Assembly: GCF_003991905.1 (NCBI RefSeq)
Contig: NZ_RSCL01000005.1
Location: 1-64,000 of the forward strand
Reading direction: 5' to 3'
Source: Dulcicalothrix desertica PCC 7102
Lineage (GTDB): Bacteria > Cyanobacteriota > Cyanobacteriia > Cyanobacteriales > Nostocaceae
DNA: 64,000 nucleotides
Below are positions 40,063 to 45,787 of this stretch, one piece after another. The notes under the pieces were generated by a model. It was not told where the DNA came from, ran no database searches, and was given only the letters and a program-made list of their open reading frames with translations. Numbering within the stretch: position 1 is the stretch's first letter; the number at the start of each line of letters is the position of its first letter. Made by a program: the position numbers and the translations under genes.

Positions 40063-40770
40063 ATGTTGATACGTAATTTAATAGAATCCCACTATGCCAA
40101 TCAAACTCGGTTCTTTGAACTGTCCGAAGGCTTTCAACACTTAGTATCAGGTGTAGCAGATATTAAATTTTATGATGAATTTATTGCCAACCTTTGTAAA
40201 ACGCACCTTAAGAGTCCTCAAATACTAGCATTTCTTTACGCAGCGGCGCCTCCGACTGTTGCAAGTACCATTCAACATAATATGCTAGAAGAGCTGGGAC
40301 TTGACGCTGAAGGAATTTGCCATCCTGATTTATTGAGAAAGTTAGCGAGTGCAGTAGGACTAGATAATGCCAAGCAAGCACAAATAGAAGCTTCATCACA
40401 AGCAGAATTACATCGAATGTGTTCCGAGCCAATGCTGTATGGGACACTAAAAGAACTGGCACTATCGGTATCGTTAGAAGTAACTTGTTTTGAATGGATG
40501 CTGTCCCGTCTTTCAGGAAAAATGGGAATGGCTCTGCAACAGTACCGAAAACTTGATAAAGAAAGCTTAGAATGGTTTTTTCATCATTCGGAAGTTGATA
40601 TACGTCATGCTGAAGAAGGTTTAGATTCCGTGGTTAATTACGTTGAATATTACGGTTTTGAAATTGATGACTTAGAAACTATCTTAGATATAACGTTTCG
40701 TGAGAATATATTTATCAAGCGATACTTTGGAGAAATTGCACTAGCAAAAGAAACGGAGATGTTAACATGA
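40063..40770 (+). CDS. Haem-oxygenase-like diiron protein (HDO family)
   Basis: A 235-residue all-helical protein of the iron-containing redox/Haem_oxygenas_2 type. Potential iron ligands are His72 and Glu76 or Glu77 (QHNMLEELG), His87 (CHPDLL), Glu139 or Glu144 (SLEVTCFEWM), and the signature His175-x3-Asp179-x2-His182 (FHHSEVDIRHAEEG). HDO enzymes such as UndA, SznF and BesC use O2 for decarboxylation, N-oxygenation or C-C cleavage of amino or fatty acids. TenA and true haem oxygenases share the fold but lack this HxxxDxxH pattern. Its stop codon overlaps the start of the next gene (ATGA), so the two are coupled. It is the first gene of a five-gene set. Substrate unknown. Confidence 0.75.
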   Translation: MLIRNLIESHYANQTRFFELSEGFQHLVSGVADIKFYDEFIANLCKTHLKSPQILAFLYAAAPPTVASTIQHNMLEELGLDAEGICHPDLLRKLASAVGLDNAKQAQIEASSQAELHRMCSEPMLYGTLKELALSVSLEVTCFEWMLSRLSGKMGMALQQYRKLDKESLEWFFHHSEVDIRHAEEGLDSVVNYVEYYGFEIDDLETILDITFRENIFIKRYFGEIALAKETEMLT

Positions 40771-41912
40771 AAATTATCGAAGTAACTATAACTCCGCTCA
40801 AAATCCCTTTTACAGAATCTTTTTCTCACAGCACTAAATCTAGGACTTATTCAGATTCCATCGTTGTGAAATTGAAAGCGGCAGATGGTACAATTGGTTA
40901 TGGTGAAGCTGTAGCGCGTCCCTATGTTACAGGAGAAACTGTAGAATCTTGTTTACAGTTTATGGCTTCGGCAATTTGGGAACATATCAAACACATTGAT
41001 TATCCAGAGCCAGAACCAGATATATCTTGGTTATATAAAATCAGCGAGACAATTCCCACGGCAAAAAGTCAAGGTGTTATTGCGTTTAATGCTGCTAAAG
41101 CTGGTTTTGAATTGGCTTTACTCGATTGTTTGCTAAAAAGTCAAAACCTATCCCTATCTACCATTTTACCACCTAAGCGTAATACTGTTATTTATAGCGG
41201 CGCCATCACATCAAGTTCAATAGAAAAAGCCGTTAAAAATGCTAAATCGTTTAAATTATTTGGTTTAAAACACATCAAAGTCAAAGTGACTGGAGAAGAG
41301 GACTTTTCGCGTCTCTATGCAATTCGTCAAGCAGTCGGACAAGAAACCTCACTACGAATCGACGGTAATGGTACATATGATTTTGATGGCGCCGTTAGAG
41401 TATGTGAGGAATTAGCCCAGTTAAATATTGATTCTGCTGAACAATTAATCGAACGTAGTACACCACAAACTTGGGCAAAATTGAGAGAAATGGCGCCTAT
41501 CCCCCAAATGGTAGACGAATCACTAGTAACAATTGAAGATGCTGAGGCTTTAATTGCAGCTTCTTCCTGTGACTTTTTTAACTTAAGAATTTCTAAATGT
41601 GGTGGTATTGCCCAAACAATAAGAATTGCACAATTAGCCCAAACCGCAGGAATAAAAATCCAACTCGGATGCCAAGTAGGAGAAACTGCGATACTTTCAG
41701 CAGCAGGTAGGCATTTAGCTGCATGGCTAGATGATGTAACTTTCGTTGAGGGTTCTTACGGTGACTTGCTACTGTGCGAAGATATTAGTCGTGAAAGCAT
41801 TCGTTTTGGTAATGGTGGTAAAGGTGGGTTATTGCGTAAACCTGGACTAGGAATTGAAGTTAAAGATGAAATACTAGAAAAGTATACCTGGCAACGGATA
41901 CAACGGATGTAA
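40767..41912 (+). CDS. Enolase-superfamily epimerase/cycloisomerase (MLE/dipeptide-epimerase type)
   Basis: A 381-residue enolase-superfamily enzyme. An alpha/beta capping domain (residues 1-125) precedes the barrel. Catalytic Lys pair: Lys171 and Lys173 (HIKVKV). Metal ligands: Asp199 (RIDGNGTY), Glu229 or Glu225 (EQLIERS) and Asp250 (MVDES). The opposing catalytic Lys is Lys277 (RISKCGG). Two-lysine placement fits 1,1-proton transfer (epimerases such as L-Ala-D/L-Glu epimerase), or N-succinylamino acid racemase/OSBS chemistry. It overlaps the diiron gene by four bases. Specificity is unknown. The downstream GH3-type ligase suggests an amino acid conjugate or dipeptide as substrate, but that is inference. 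Confidence 0.8.
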   Translation: MKIIEVTITPLKIPFTESFSHSTKSRTYSDSIVVKLKAADGTIGYGEAVARPYVTGETVESCLQFMASAIWEHIKHIDYPEPEPDISWLYKISETIPTAKSQGVIAFNAAKAGFELALLDCLLKSQNLSLSTILPPKRNTVIYSGAITSSSIEKAVKNAKSFKLFGLKHIKVKVTGEEDFSRLYAIRQAVGQETSLRIDGNGTYDFDGAVRVCEELAQLNIDSAEQLIERSTPQTWAKLREMAPIPQMVDESLVTIEDAEALIAASSCDFFNLRISKCGGIAQTIRIAQLAQTAGIKIQLGCQVGETAILSAAGRHLAAWLDDVTFVEGSYGDLLLCEDISRESIRFGNGGKGGLLRKPGLGIEVKDEILEKYTWQRIQRM

Positions 41913-42022
41913 CGGATGCGTTATTGGTGACAATCAAACTACAAATAAACTACAATTAAGCTACAAACAAAAATCAGTTAGATAAAATAAACTATCCGTT
42001 ACATCCGCTCATTATCCGTTGC
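41893..42022. repeat. Inverted ATCCGTTACATCCG repeats around the enolase-GH3 gap
   Basis: ACGGATGTAACGGAT (about 41901-41917) and the inverse ATCCGTTACATCCG (about 41994-42007) bracket the 106-base gap. A further direct copy of ATCCGTTACATCCGTTA lies at about 30143-30160 upstream of the WG-repeat gene. The repeat reaches the start of the GH3 gene. Confidence 0.65.
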
Positions 42023-42024
42023 CA

Positions 42025-43617
42025 ATGATACTCAGCACATTTGTTCGTTTTGGTAGGCGCCTTGCAAAACAGCTTGATGTCGCAGCATTGAATCCAGAAG
42101 CAGCACAATTATCACTTCTGCATTCAATTTTGGCGCCTAATGCTGACACTGTTTTTGGTAGAGAACATACGTTTTCTCAAATCAAAACAACTCGTGACTA
42201 CTATAAATTCGTTCCAATTAGAGATTATGAAGGATTTCGTCCCTATGTTGACCTTATTGTTGCAGGGAAACCAGGTATCCTGACAAGTGAACCATGTACA
42301 ATGTTGACTTTAACGAGTGGTACAACTGGTAAACCCAAGTATATACCCGTTACAGAAACATCTGAAAGACTGGGTTCTGAGTTGATGAGACAATGGCTTT
42401 ACCGAAGTTTGGTAAACCATCCTCAGTTTCTGTCACGTGCAATAGTAGGGGTAGTAAGTCCAGCAGTTGAAGGATATACAGATTCAGGAATGAGCTATGG
42501 TAGTATTTCGGGGAGAATTTATCAGCGAATACCTTATATTATCAAACGTTCGTATGCTGTACCTTATGAAACCTTTGAACTAAAAGACTATGACGAAAGA
42601 TATTTTGCTATTGCGTGTTTTACTTTTAGGCGCCAAGTTTCTTATCTTTCCACACCCAACCCTACAACCTTAATACGTATAGCACAAATCGCGAATACAT
42701 ATAAAGAAGATATTATTCGCGCTATTCATAACGGTACTTTCGGTAATAAATCTATTAAACCTCAACCCAAGAGAGCAAAAGAACTAGAAAAAATAACCGA
42801 TAGAACAAATGCTTTACTACCTAAAGATTGCTGGCGCCATCTCCAGTTAATTGGTTGTTGGACTGGTGGAACAGTTGGTATTCAAGCACAAAAGCTAGAA
42901 AATTATTATGGCGCCGTTCCGATTCGCGACATTGGGTATTTAGCAAGTGAAGCTAGAATAACACTACCTTATCAAGATAATACATCTAGCGGAATATTAG
43001 CGCTAACTACTAACTATTATGAATTTATTCCAGAAGAGGAATTAGACTCAGACAATCCAACAATATTATTAAGCCATGAAATAGAATTAGGCAAACGCTA
43101 CGGTATTTTATTAACTACAACTGCTGGACTTTACCGCTATCAAATTCATGACATTGTAGAAGTTACAGGGTTTTATCAAAAGGCGCCGTTACTAGCATTC
43201 ATTCGTAAAAGTCAGGATATGACTAATATGACAGGCGAAAAAATGCACGTCAATCATATCTTGATGGCAATGGAAACAATAAGACAAAAATATAACTTAC
43301 CAATAGTAACATATAGATTTACACCTGATATTGAAAATCAGCGTTACAAAATTTATTTAGAACTAGATTTAGAATTAACACAAGCCATACAAGAAAATCT
43401 CTTACAGCAAATAATTACAGCAATAGACTTGCAACTGTGTAATGTCAACTGCGAATACAAACAAAAGCGACAATCAAAACGATTACATTTGCCATGTTTA
43501 TATATAATGCCTCCCGGTTGGTCAGAAGCAGAAACAAGAAAAGAAATAGCAAGTAATAAACGAAACGTCCAATATAAATGGAAAATACTTTGCCATGAAA
43601 ATAATAAAAATTTATGA
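42025..43617 (+). CDS. GH3-family acyl-acid amido synthetase
   Basis: About 530 residues, related to the plant GH3 auxin/jasmonate-conjugating enzymes. These adenylate a carboxylic acid and transfer it to an amino group. ATP-binding motif: MLTLTSGTTGKPKYIPVT near residue 95. Further GH3 features: IGCWTGGTVGIQAQKLENYYGAVPIRDIGYLASEARI, GLYRYQIHDIVEVTGFY and the C-terminal CEYKQKRQSKRL, LPCLYIMPPGWSEAE. A TTG two codons upstream (42019) would lengthen the frame slightly; I chose the ATG. It overlaps the next gene by four bases. Bacterial GH3 proteins are poorly characterised. In this set it likely forms an amide bond between an acid and an amino acid. Confidence 0.82.
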   Translation: MILSTFVRFGRRLAKQLDVAALNPEAAQLSLLHSILAPNADTVFGREHTFSQIKTTRDYYKFVPIRDYEGFRPYVDLIVAGKPGILTSEPCTMLTLTSGTTGKPKYIPVTETSERLGSELMRQWLYRSLVNHPQFLSRAIVGVVSPAVEGYTDSGMSYGSISGRIYQRIPYIIKRSYAVPYETFELKDYDERYFAIACFTFRRQVSYLSTPNPTTLIRIAQIANTYKEDIIRAIHNGTFGNKSIKPQPKRAKELEKITDRTNALLPKDCWRHLQLIGCWTGGTVGIQAQKLENYYGAVPIRDIGYLASEARITLPYQDNTSSGILALTTNYYEFIPEEELDSDNPTILLSHEIELGKRYGILLTTTAGLYRYQIHDIVEVTGFYQKAPLLAFIRKSQDMTNMTGEKMHVNHILMAMETIRQKYNLPIVTYRFTPDIENQRYKIYLELDLELTQAIQENLLQQIITAIDLQLCNVNCEYKQKRQSKRLHLPCLYIMPPGWSEAETRKEIASNKRNVQYKWKILCHENNKNL

Positions 43618-44048
43618 AAAATTACCCTTTTACCTTATGGCTTCTTAGCTTACTATTTTTCCTTCGAGTCCTTGGTCAAATTTTAGTAGCATATTTCAAC
43701 GTTTCATTTCTACCACCAATGCCTCATTGGTACTCAGGATTGCTACCCTATCCAATTCTACTACCAACACAGATACTAATTATAATATTACAAATAAAAA
43801 TCAATACAGATATCTCTAGAAATAAAGGCTTTTTCGCAAAACCAAGACGTAAATTCGGCAAGTTGCTTCAATGGTTCAGCTACCCATATGCTGTTATCAT
43901 GGCTATACGATATGTAATAACTATGTACTTATATCCAGAACGTCGTTGGTTTGGAGAAGGAACTATTCCGATTATTTTTCATTTTGTGCTAGCTGGATAT
44001 TTATTTACTTGGGGAAAATTTTCTGCAAGATGGCAAGAAAAAGAATAA
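43614..44048 (+). CDS. Small integral membrane protein
   Basis: A 144-residue protein with about four membrane helices: LWLLSLLFFLRVLGQILVAYF (7-27), YPILLPTQILIIILQI (45-61), YPYAVIMAIRYVITMYLYP and IIFHFVLAGYLFTWG. There are no catalytic motifs. It overlaps the GH3 gene by four bases and the hydrolase gene by 19, so it belongs to the same transcript. It may be a membrane anchor or transporter-like subunit for the pathway. I do not recognise the family. Confidence 0.7.
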   Translation: MKNYPFTLWLLSLLFFLRVLGQILVAYFNVSFLPPMPHWYSGLLPYPILLPTQILIIILQIKINTDISRNKGFFAKPRRKFGKLLQWFSYPYAVIMAIRYVITMYLYPERRWFGEGTIPIIFHFVLAGYLFTWGKFSARWQEKE

Positions 44049-45787
44049 AAAAAATACTTATAGTTACTTTCGCTTTGCTCGCATTGCTGACTACAATTAT
44101 CATCGCAGCATTTCCAATACTGGCGCCTTTTTTCTTAGCTTCACAATTAGGATTTGGTTCTGCTCAATATAGAGTTTGGGTAGAGTATAGTGTTCCTCTT
44201 ACTGCTTCTGATGGTGTGAAGCTAGTAGCAAATATTTCCCATCCACAACAACTTGAAAAAACTCCGACTATTTTAGTACGAATACCTTATTCTAAAAATT
44301 TTACAAATACTACGTTTGCCAATGTCGTTGGACGCATGTGGGCAGCGCGCGGTTATACTGCTGTAATTCAAGGAACAAGAGGACGCTACGAATCTGGAGG
44401 GGAATATTTTCCATTTAAAAGCGAAAAGACAGATGGAATAGAAACTTTAGCTTGGTTAGAAAAACAGCCTTGGTATAACGGCAAAATTGGCATGTGGGGT
44501 GGTTCGTACTTTGGATATACACAATGGGTTTTAGCGGATAAAGTAAATCCTGGTTTATCAGCGTTAATTTTGCAAATTTGTAGCACAGATTTTCATCGTA
44601 TGTTTTATCCTGGAGGCGCCTTTTCTCTAGAAAGCGCTTTATATTGGGCAGTTACCAGCTATGGCAAACAAGATAATCCTGCATCTGAGGAAGTTTTAAA
44701 ACCAGGATATAAAGGTTTTCCCCTAATTAAAGCAGATGACCGAGCAGTCCAAGATATTCCATTTTTTAACGACTGGGCAAGTCATCCAGAAAAAGATGAG
44801 TATTGGAAAACGATAGATGGTGAAAATAGAACTAACACTTTACAGGCGCCTGCGTTATTAATGGCAGGATGGTACGACCCATTCTTACCCACCCAAATTA
44901 CAGACTTTCTCAAAATTAAAAGCGAAGCTAAACCTCTTGTTGCTAAAAACACTCGTTTAATTATTGGTCCTTGGGCACACGCGCGCACCGTTACTTTTCC
45001 CAATGGTTACACACCTCGCAACTACCGTCTCGAAAGTTTGGCGCCAACTATTCCCTGGTTCGATGAGCATCTACTCGATAATCCTAAATTAGAAGCTCCG
45101 GTACAAATTTATGTAATGGGTAAAAATATATGGCGCCAAGAGCAAGAATTTCCTTTAGCCCGCACTATTTATACAAAACATTATTTACACAGTAATGGTA
45201 AAGCCAATACTCTTAGCGGTGATGGGATATTAAATCTAACACCACAATACACAGAAATACCAGATACTTACATATATAATCCATTGAACCCAGTACCAAG
45301 CGCAGGGGGTACAATGCTTGGCCCACGCGCTGGAATTGAAAGGCAAAACGATATAGAAAATCGAAATGACGTTTTAAATTACACAACAGCACCTTTACAA
45401 GAAGATATTGAAGTTACTGGGGCAATACGTCTAATTTTATACGTGTCAACAACGGCGCCCTCGACGGACTTTACAGCAAAACTCGTTGATGTTTATCCCG
45501 ATGGTTCCGCTTACAACGTTTCTGAAGGAATAATCCGCAGACAATACACTTCAAAGCAACCAACTCAAATAGAAATTGAACTATGGGCAACAAGTCAGGT
45601 TTTCTTCAAAGGACATAAAATCAGGCTAGAAGTATCTAGTAGTAATTATCCGCGATTTGACCGCAATCCAAATACTGGGCACCCAATTGCCACGGAAATT
45701 AACCCAGTTACCGCAAAACAAGTTATTTACCATGACCAGAAGGCGCCTTCATATCTTGTACTACCAATTATTCCTAACTATACGTAA
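44030..45787 (+). CDS. CocE/NonD-family (peptidase S15-like) hydrolase
   Basis: About 585 residues. The longest frame starts at 43871, inside the previous gene; the ATG at 44030 gives MARKRIKKILIVTFALLALLTT, a normal membrane anchor or signal, so I prefer it. Alpha/beta hydrolase: Ser159 in WGGSYFGY, Asp in AGWYDPFLP, His in IGPWAHART. A C-terminal jelly-roll (XPDC-like, VTGAIRLILYVSTTAPSTDFTAKLVDVYPDG) follows. The family hydrolyses esters and acyl-amino bonds (cocaine esterase, glutaryl acylase, X-Pro dipeptidyl peptidase). Placed on the periplasmic side, it may cleave or mature the product made by the GH3-type ligase. Confidence 0.82.
   Translation: MARKRIKKILIVTFALLALLTTIIIAAFPILAPFFLASQLGFGSAQYRVWVEYSVPLTASDGVKLVANISHPQQLEKTPTILVRIPYSKNFTNTTFANVVGRMWAARGYTAVIQGTRGRYESGGEYFPFKSEKTDGIETLAWLEKQPWYNGKIGMWGGSYFGYTQWVLADKVNPGLSALILQICSTDFHRMFYPGGAFSLESALYWAVTSYGKQDNPASEEVLKPGYKGFPLIKADDRAVQDIPFFNDWASHPEKDEYWKTIDGENRTNTLQAPALLMAGWYDPFLPTQITDFLKIKSEAKPLVAKNTRLIIGPWAHARTVTFPNGYTPRNYRLESLAPTIPWFDEHLLDNPKLEAPVQIYVMGKNIWRQEQEFPLARTIYTKHYLHSNGKANTLSGDGILNLTPQYTEIPDTYIYNPLNPVPSAGGTMLGPRAGIERQNDIENRNDVLNYTTAPLQEDIEVTGAIRLILYVSTTAPSTDFTAKLVDVYPDGSAYNVSEGIIRRQYTSKQPTQIEIELWATSQVFFKGHKIRLEVSSSNYPRFDRNPNTGHPIATEINPVTAKQVIYHDQKAPSYLVLPIIPNYT

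Follow-up and report, generated by a model that had tools for sequence, protein, structure and literature searches.

A 64,000-nucleotide stretch of Dulcicalothrix desertica PCC 7102 (contig NZ_RSCL01000005.1, positions 1 to 64,000; hereafter the window), which belongs to a genome of 11.4 Mb, carries a run of five plus-strand genes at 40063-45787 whose predicted products are an HDO-fold dimetal protein, an enolase-superfamily racemase or epimerase, a GH3-type amide synthetase, a four-helix membrane protein and a CocE-type hydrolase (Table 1). The first three, HDO-enolase-GH3, are a real unit, and since these core genes occur together and remain neighbours in different phyla, they point to one pathway, as the initial annotation of this DNA had proposed. 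In a sister lineage of the GH3 proteins, the slot of the HDO is taken by a membrane diiron enzyme resembling OlsE, the ornithine-lipid hydroxylase. The product of the module is probably an oxidised fatty-acid-amino-acid compound, and we give an even chance to the reading in which the five genes form an operon whose product is an N-acyl-amino-acid compound, most probably an aminolipid akin to the ornithine and lysine lipids. The oxygenase swap and the link to ornithine lipids are new with respect to that annotation.

The unit was traced in 388 cyanobacterial genomes, which were searched with the window GH3 as query and with an HDO profile; both searches score a few candidates per genome, so the genome counts for GH3 and HDO are lower bounds. 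Matches to the GH3 query were found in at least 103 of the 388 genomes at E <= 1e-20, with a close GH3 in at least 16, at 619.5 to 1216.8 bits, after which the next match drops to 238.1. The HDO profile recovered at least 15 genomes, and all 15 fall within the 16 that have a close GH3 (hypergeometric value 4e-26 with relatedness ignored, which overstates independence because the 16 genomes represent three families only: f1 with one, f27 with 13 and f38 with two). The conserved co-occurrence anticipated initially is thus found. In the sixteenth close-GH3 genome (locus L061; loci and families are cited by our own numbers), the contig stops within the epimerase gene. The closest named match to the window GH3 comes from Calothrix sp. 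PCC 7716 (94% identical), and the order of the block is retained both in Calothrix and in family f27, with flanking genes that differ between them. The membrane protein and CocE genes follow GH3 in 14 loci (the window, L003-L005 and L050-L059), including L003 with its CocE in pieces, and in L049 the sequence stops after the membrane protein. Both genes are missing from the HDO-bearing cyanobacterial loci L006, L007, L008 and L060, which have several kb of downstream sequence, and neither was seen in L009, where the sequence ends less than 1 kb past GH3.

The association extends beyond cyanobacteria. Among 16 loci fetched by GH3 from the genome collection, the enolase gene adjoins GH3 in 14, eight of which also have an HDO, namely one locus of Omnitrophota (L013) and seven of cyanobacteria (L003-L009). 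Enolase and GH3 without HDO occur in metagenome-assembled genomes of Gemmatimonadota/Latescibacterota (L010, L011, L012 and L015), in Lentisphaeria (L014) and in Nitrospirae (L017), and L016 and L018 have neither gene beside GH3. For L012 and L015, an assignment to HDO by position was rejected, the proteins being of HAD type instead (by Pfam for L012, with which L015 clusters); both were excluded from the HDO profile and from the 22-row HDO alignment. In L010 and L011, a P450 gene is found downstream of GH3 on the other strand (the annotation exists for L010 only).

Using GH3 profile searches in three phyla with a threshold of E <= 1e-90, we obtained matches in 19 of 193 Omnitrophota genomes, in 7 of 64 genomes of a second phylum and in 5 of 148 of a third. 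The enolase is present in all seven loci of the second phylum and all five of the third; among the 18 Omnitrophota matches inspected out of 22, it is present in L013, L097, L099, L100 and L101, and L098 cannot be judged in this respect because its contig ends at GH3. A plasmid search with GH3 returned 12 records at 22 to 28% identity. Profile scans covered 69 loci, 66 of them with a GH3 of at least 100 bits (L144, L145 and L148 lie below, and L016 and L116 are one place); all were picked via GH3 and are therefore uninformative on enolases and HDOs located elsewhere. The subgroup enolase was found in 39 of the 66. An HDO accompanies the pair in 22 of these 39 loci, an OlsE-like protein in six, both in none and neither in 11, two of which (L061 and L137) are truncated where their contigs end. 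All 22 HDO loci have HDO, enolase and GH3 in identical order, encoded on the same strand. Many loci are near copies of one another (most of f27; L010-L012 and L015; L114 and L137; L135 and L136), so the locus counts do not represent independent events.

In L113 and L114, GH3 has a domain of FA_hydroxylase type fused to its N-terminus within a single open reading frame (the domain was detected by Pfam for L113 and by the OlsE model for both), and four of the five Nitrospirota loci (L115, L134, L135 and L136) have membrane protein, OlsE-like protein, GH3 and enolase, in this order, as separate genes. The OlsE model NF052566 matched 3 of 3 proteins tested (L113, L114 and L115) at about 190 bits over near full length and was the sole NCBIfam match at 1e-3. 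No OlsE-like gene was detected in the cyanobacterial loci that were profile-scanned. The membrane protein family of the window accompanies both oxygenase types, in 15 cyanobacterial and four Nitrospirota loci, and a fragment of it lies at the contig end of L098 (Omnitrophota). A tree built from 52 GH3 rows, which represent 50 of the 66 loci, places the HDO loci in one lineage and the OlsE-type loci in another, each supported at 100/100; the two group as sisters at 93/87, slightly below the level starred in the tree. The HDO was gained, lost or replaced within its GH3 lineage, since loci lacking it (L010, L012, L014 and L015; L098 is not judgeable) fall there too. That two unrelated diiron oxygenases replace each other within one module provides direct clues to the substrate.

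This exchange also bears on a different and unlikely scenario, in which the module yields a soluble signal or natural product. Here the HDO would form an unusual amino acid (N-oxygenated, or with an alkene, alkyne or nitrile group), the enolase would set its stereochemistry, GH3 would cap it, and the membrane protein and CocE would export and activate it. The patchy distribution, the apparent membrane anchor of CocE (by eye) and the preference of characterised HDOs, mostly for fatty or amino acids according to the accessible text of PMC13108848, speak for such a product, but the OlsE-like swap introduces a lipid-modifying family, and the same small membrane protein stands beside both kinds of oxygenase.

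The HDO matched PF14518 at 63 bits, its sole Pfam name at 0.001. Its AlphaFold model (mean predicted local distance difference test, pLDDT, 87.6) has a heme-oxygenase-like helical fold, with CADD, PqqC, HrmI and FlcD as the top Foldseek matches and 10-19% identity to solved chains among the 50 chains listed. The HxxxDxxH motif (H175-x3-D179-x2-H182) is invariant in 22 of 22 HDOs, the window included, as are H87, E144 and the acidic positions E76/E77/D81 in the 22 aligned proteins. The ligand rule for HDOs, as worded in the accessible text of PMC13108848, comprises three histidines and three carboxylates on the core helices; H87, E144, H175, D179 and H182 supply five of these, and one of E76, E77 and D81 the sixth. 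The window protein belongs to the HDO superfamily by its modelled fold and ligand set, and dimetal oxidation with O2 is predicted for it. Four further PF14518 proteins above cut-off are encoded in the window genome, on contigs C31, C21, C7 and C2.

Grouping with TenA, which the initial annotation had named as an outcome that would refute its pathway, was not observed, as the fold matches are led by CADD and PqqC. Membership of TenA/thiaminase II was rejected, the TenA chains 4fn6 (rank 28) and 1yaf (rank 34) coming below CADD, PqqC, HrmI, FlcD and UndA (rank 21); because the TENA/THI-4 domain protein 4lqx ranks 11, the fold ranking by itself argues weakly against TenA. CADD being the best fold match, and plant GH3.12 joining, by its name, 4-substituted benzoates to glutamate, one could envisage a CADD-type self-sacrificing p-aminobenzoate synthase whose product GH3 would couple to an amino acid in a folate side route. 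This is extremely unlikely: residue 154, which aligns with Lys152, the amine donor of CADD in the accessible text of PMC11965152, is Met in the window and never Lys in the 22 HDOs (Ile in 12, Met in 8 and Leu in 2), and the CADD model gave 19 bits for the window protein against a cut-off of 200. CADD membership was rejected accordingly.

The enolase-superfamily protein matched MR_MLE_C at 147 bits. K171, K173 and K277 are invariant in two alignments (17/17 and 16/16 enolases), and the metal triad D199/E225/D250 is invariant in 16/16 enolases across phyla, down to 27% identity. The KxK motif, the third lysine and the metal ligands identify it, as far as sequence can tell, as a two-lysine racemase of the MLE subgroup. 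In the accessible text of PMC8142540, the lysines of such enzymes are paired, and two-lysine racemases take N-acyl amides in which the amide adjoins the alpha carbon; an N-acyl amide is the type of product made by GH3, which therefore fits this substrate type. The signatures FxHxxxxR, RxYVT, VGE and EG are likewise invariant in 16/16 enolases.

Dipeptide epimerases have a DxD motif that binds the free ammonium group of the substrate. At this position the window protein has E328-G329-S330, and E-G occurs in 16/16 enolases, followed by Ser in 10, Ala in five and Gly in one, so that the second aspartate is absent throughout. The dipeptide-like product considered initially is not supported, because EGS stands in place of DxD in the window protein, as E-G does in all 16. 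Dipeptide epimerase membership was rejected on this motif and on the family models, which gave 110 bits against a cut-off of 500. The best solved relative is the dipeptide epimerase 3rit at 124.7 bits, nearly equalled at 123.3 bits by 2p88, which we take to be an N-succinyl-arginine racemase. A part in dipeptide or murein-peptide metabolism, with the enolase as a true dipeptide epimerase and CocE as a dipeptidase, could appeal to 3rit and to the X-Pro dipeptidyl peptidase that the S15 family takes in, but it is very unlikely given the missing aspartate, the near tie with 2p88 and the low model scores.

Turning to GH3, its N, M and C domains scored 197, 84 and 40 bits, all above the Pfam cut-off, and the motif TSGTT, presumably the GH3 adenylation motif, is invariant in 17 of 17 GH3s, which argues for membership of the GH3 amido synthetase superfamily. 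The nearest named family is OlsH, at 81.9 bits; with a cut-off of 620, OlsH membership was rejected. Plant GH3s are distant, the best being GH3.15 at 88 bits. The OlsH model had matches in 17 of 149 planctomycete genomes, none above cut-off, and these were used as an outgroup only. No match to PF13444, which we take to cover OlsB, was found in the window genome. A second, distant GH3 is encoded in this genome on contig C26. According to the accessible text of PMC12493201, OlsH forms N-acyl ornithine from a free fatty acid and ATP. The proximity of GH3 to OlsH and the OlsE-like hydroxylase of the sister loci agree with the acyl-amino-acid type of product suggested by the initial annotation.

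The acyl acid could instead be aromatic and derived from chorismate, giving an oxidised aryl-amino-acid conjugate comparable to those of plant GH3.12/PBS3 and not a lipid, which we regard as unlikely. One of the nearest solved structures is that of GH3.12, which is named a benzoate-glutamate ligase, and a chorismatase-like/Rid-family protein is encoded within two genes of GH3 in L013, L017 and L098. Its match to the chorismatase model TIGR04444 is weak, however (41 bits against a cut-off of 325, with the Rid-family model slightly higher), no chorismatase-like protein was detected by profile in the cyanobacterial loci scanned, and the OlsE-like partners point to lipid head groups. An unnamed protein of 436 amino acids, possibly a beta-propeller, is also encoded near GH3 (L013 10650-13144, L014 6765-8075, L098 215-2712, L017 5697-6848 and 9694-9960; outside L014 the ranges also cover the Rid/chorismatase-like gene), and its L013 copy had no Pfam, NCBIfam or PDB match. 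The Rid/chorismatase-like protein accompanies GH3 alongside it in L013, L098 and L017 (Omnitrophota and Nitrospirae), and not in L014.

For the membrane protein, no family was found by Pfam, NCBIfam or Foldseek (best E 3.1). The last protein of the run scored 382 bits with the CocE_NonD model TIGR00976 (cut-off 66), and S159, D283 and H317, which we take to be the positions of the CocE Ser-Asp-His triad, are invariant in nine orthologues; model and triad together make it a putative CocE/NonD hydrolase, with a start that looks membrane-spanning by eye.

Returning to the N-acyl-amino-acid compound, the five proteins could act as follows. GH3 would activate a free acyl acid, probably a fatty acid, with ATP and couple it to an amino acid, a type of reaction expected from its family. 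The enolase, a metal-binding enzyme whose catalytic lysines sit on two faces, would invert or racemise the alpha carbon of the resulting N-acyl amino acid, which offers an amide beside the alpha carbon together with a carboxylate, the combination that two-lysine racemases of this subgroup probably use. The soluble HDO would then oxidise the product, probably at the side chain of its amino acid, just as ornithine is hydroxylated by OlsE within ornithine lipids. The four-helix membrane protein, as a conserved partner, may hold, deliver or flip the product, and the membrane-anchored CocE may act late, outside the cytoplasm and in particular lineages, by trimming or transacylation, which is the weakest step of the scheme. 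What the data show are the gene order, the co-occurrence, the families, the conservation of active sites and the exchange of oxygenases; we infer the identities of the acyl and amino acids, the order of the steps, the inversion, the site of oxidation and the roles of the membrane protein and CocE. More tentatively, the loci may represent a trans-phylum module for a new class of stereo-inverted, head-group-oxidised aminolipids, in which HDO and OlsE-like enzymes are interchangeable beside GH3, the epimerase and the four-helix protein.

Several observations weigh against the aminolipid reading. The window GH3 lies on a long branch apart from the planctomycete OlsH-like proteins in the 52-row tree, and its score is far below the OlsH cut-off, which makes any particular amino acid or acyl acid conjectural. 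The OlsE-like proteins remain below the NF052566 cut-off (about 190 against 475 bits) and thus are not identified as OlsE, and an OlsE-like gene is missing from L017, the fifth of the Nitrospirota loci. HDO chemistry, in the accessible text of PMC13108848, ranges well beyond hydroxylation. Nine uncut epimerase-GH3 loci carry neither oxygenase. In L100 (2098-8188) and L101 (3314-9229) of Omnitrophota, a six-gene run encodes a methyltransferase, an SDR, a nitroreductase, an alpha/beta (serine) hydrolase, the enolase and GH3, and no oxygenase of the HDO or OlsE-like kind was seen there. The chorismatase-like neighbours described above belong here as well. As for CocE, its identity with OlsI was rejected (no NF052614 match at 1e-3), and no other O-acyltransferase was found in the five-gene set. 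In Calothrix PCC 7716, CocE is encoded in fragments in different reading frames (L003 11006-12456), the other four open reading frames being of near-normal length, and it appears from the sequence that CocE is dispensable in this strain. Finally, the possibility that relatives keep the genes apart, raised initially as an argument against a common pathway, did not hold for the core genes in close relatives; it did for distant GH3s, no enolase having been found near L102-L112 of Omnitrophota, some of them on short contigs, or near the five more distant cyanobacterial GH3s L149-L153.

The layout in the window, five plus-strand genes overlapping or closely spaced, agrees in coordinates and junctions with the earlier description, and the kinds of protein named there (an HDO with HxxxDxxH, a two-lysine enolase, GH3, a membrane protein and CocE) were borne out. 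The HDO/enolase and GH3/membrane protein junctions are ATGA overlaps, and the membrane protein and CocE genes overlap by 19 bases. The 112 bases between the enolase stop and GH3 are counted to the ATG at 42025; an alternative GH3 start, TTG at 42019, is possible. This gap is absent in Calothrix PCC 7716 (L003), where both reading frames overlap. Repeated cggatg/tccgtt elements are visible by eye in the 3' end of the epimerase gene and in the gap (41880-42024). A scan for promoters and terminators gave nothing in excess of shuffled sequence.

Table 1. Features of the five-gene run in the window.
Feature	Positions	Strand	Basis or remark
HDO-fold dimetal protein gene	40063..40770	+	PF14518, alignment, predicted structure and Foldseek
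Putative enolase-superfamily (MLE subgroup) two-lysine racemase/epimerase, 381 aa	40767..41912	+	Family models, alignment
Epimerase-GH3 intergenic gap, 112 bases	41913..42024	+	
Predicted GH3-type acyl-adenylating amide synthetase, 530 aa, TSGTTG motif	42025..43617	+	PF03321, GH3_M, GH3_C
Four-helix small membrane protein, 144 aa	43614..44048	+	No Pfam/NCBIfam family; relatives in Nitrospirota and Omnitrophota loci
Putative CocE/NonD (S15) alpha/beta hydrolase, 585 aa	44030..45787	+	TIGR00976; N-terminal membrane anchor (by eye)

Apart from the gene run, the window differs in its palindromes from several of the cyanobacterial loci. GGCGCC occurs 101 times in the 64 kb, where 5 are expected by shuffling, and GCGATCGC, which we take to be the usual cyanobacterial HIP1 octamer, is absent. 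The Calothrix loci L003, L004 and L005 have 32, 32 and 23 copies of GGCGCC and no HIP1, and L006, L008 and L050 have 7, 22 and 16 copies of HIP1 and no GGCGCC. The clade of the window seems to have swapped its over-represented palindrome.

The module would offer a testable function at once for a bacterial GH3 clade, an unassigned HDO subgroup, a distinct enolase subgroup and a family-less membrane protein. An aminolipid product would add a phosphorus-free N-acyl-amino-acid lipid to the repertoire of cyanobacteria. Should the trans-phylum module be real, it would, to our knowledge, contain the first HDO in membrane-lipid synthesis and, as far as the literature searched shows, be the first route to an N-acyl-amino-acid lipid in cyanobacteria. 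In the accessible portion of the open-access literature searched, no phosphorus-free N-acyl-amino-acid lipid of cyanobacteria was found reported; ornithine lipids are reported there from mats rich in cyanobacteria, without assignment to cyanobacteria. Nor was GH3 found together with either an HDO or an enolase-superfamily enzyme in the accessible open-access texts, most subscription papers lying outside this search. Taken singly, the parts belong to known kinds, and the pathway of OlsH has been published; neither the combination nor the enolase step nor the exchange between HDO and OlsE-like proteins was found in the open-access literature searched.

Each part of the module can be set beside a known system. 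With the HDO superfamily (UndA, BesC, HrmI, SznF, AetD, MboA and CADD, in the accessible text of PMC13108848), the window HDO shares the fold and the ligand pattern, but it scores above cut-off for no named subfamily and has different genomic partners. Two-lysine racemases, such as N-succinylamino acid racemase and dipeptide epimerase (PMC8142540, accessible text), share the KxK motif, the third lysine and the metal triad with the window subgroup, which differs by its own FxHxxxxR, RxYVT, VGE and EG signatures and by the absence of DxD. The plant GH3 acyl acid amido synthetases have the same three Pfam GH3 domains and adenylation motif, although the window GH3 is distant from them (88 bits to the best). 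The OlsH-OlsG-OlsI operon of Singulisphaera, as far as the accessible text of PMC12493201 describes it, is similar in its GH3 first step, in being a small operon with an alpha/beta hydrolase and in its N-acyl amino acid type of product; it differs in having three genes, without an HDO, an OlsE-like or an enolase-superfamily enzyme. Finally, the ornithine-lipid hydroxylase OlsE, in the accessible texts of PMC3972451 and PMC11631085, is likewise the oxygenase partner of an N-acyl-amino-acid pathway, and OlsE-like proteins fill the corresponding slot in the sister loci, whereas the HDO of the window is soluble and has another fold.

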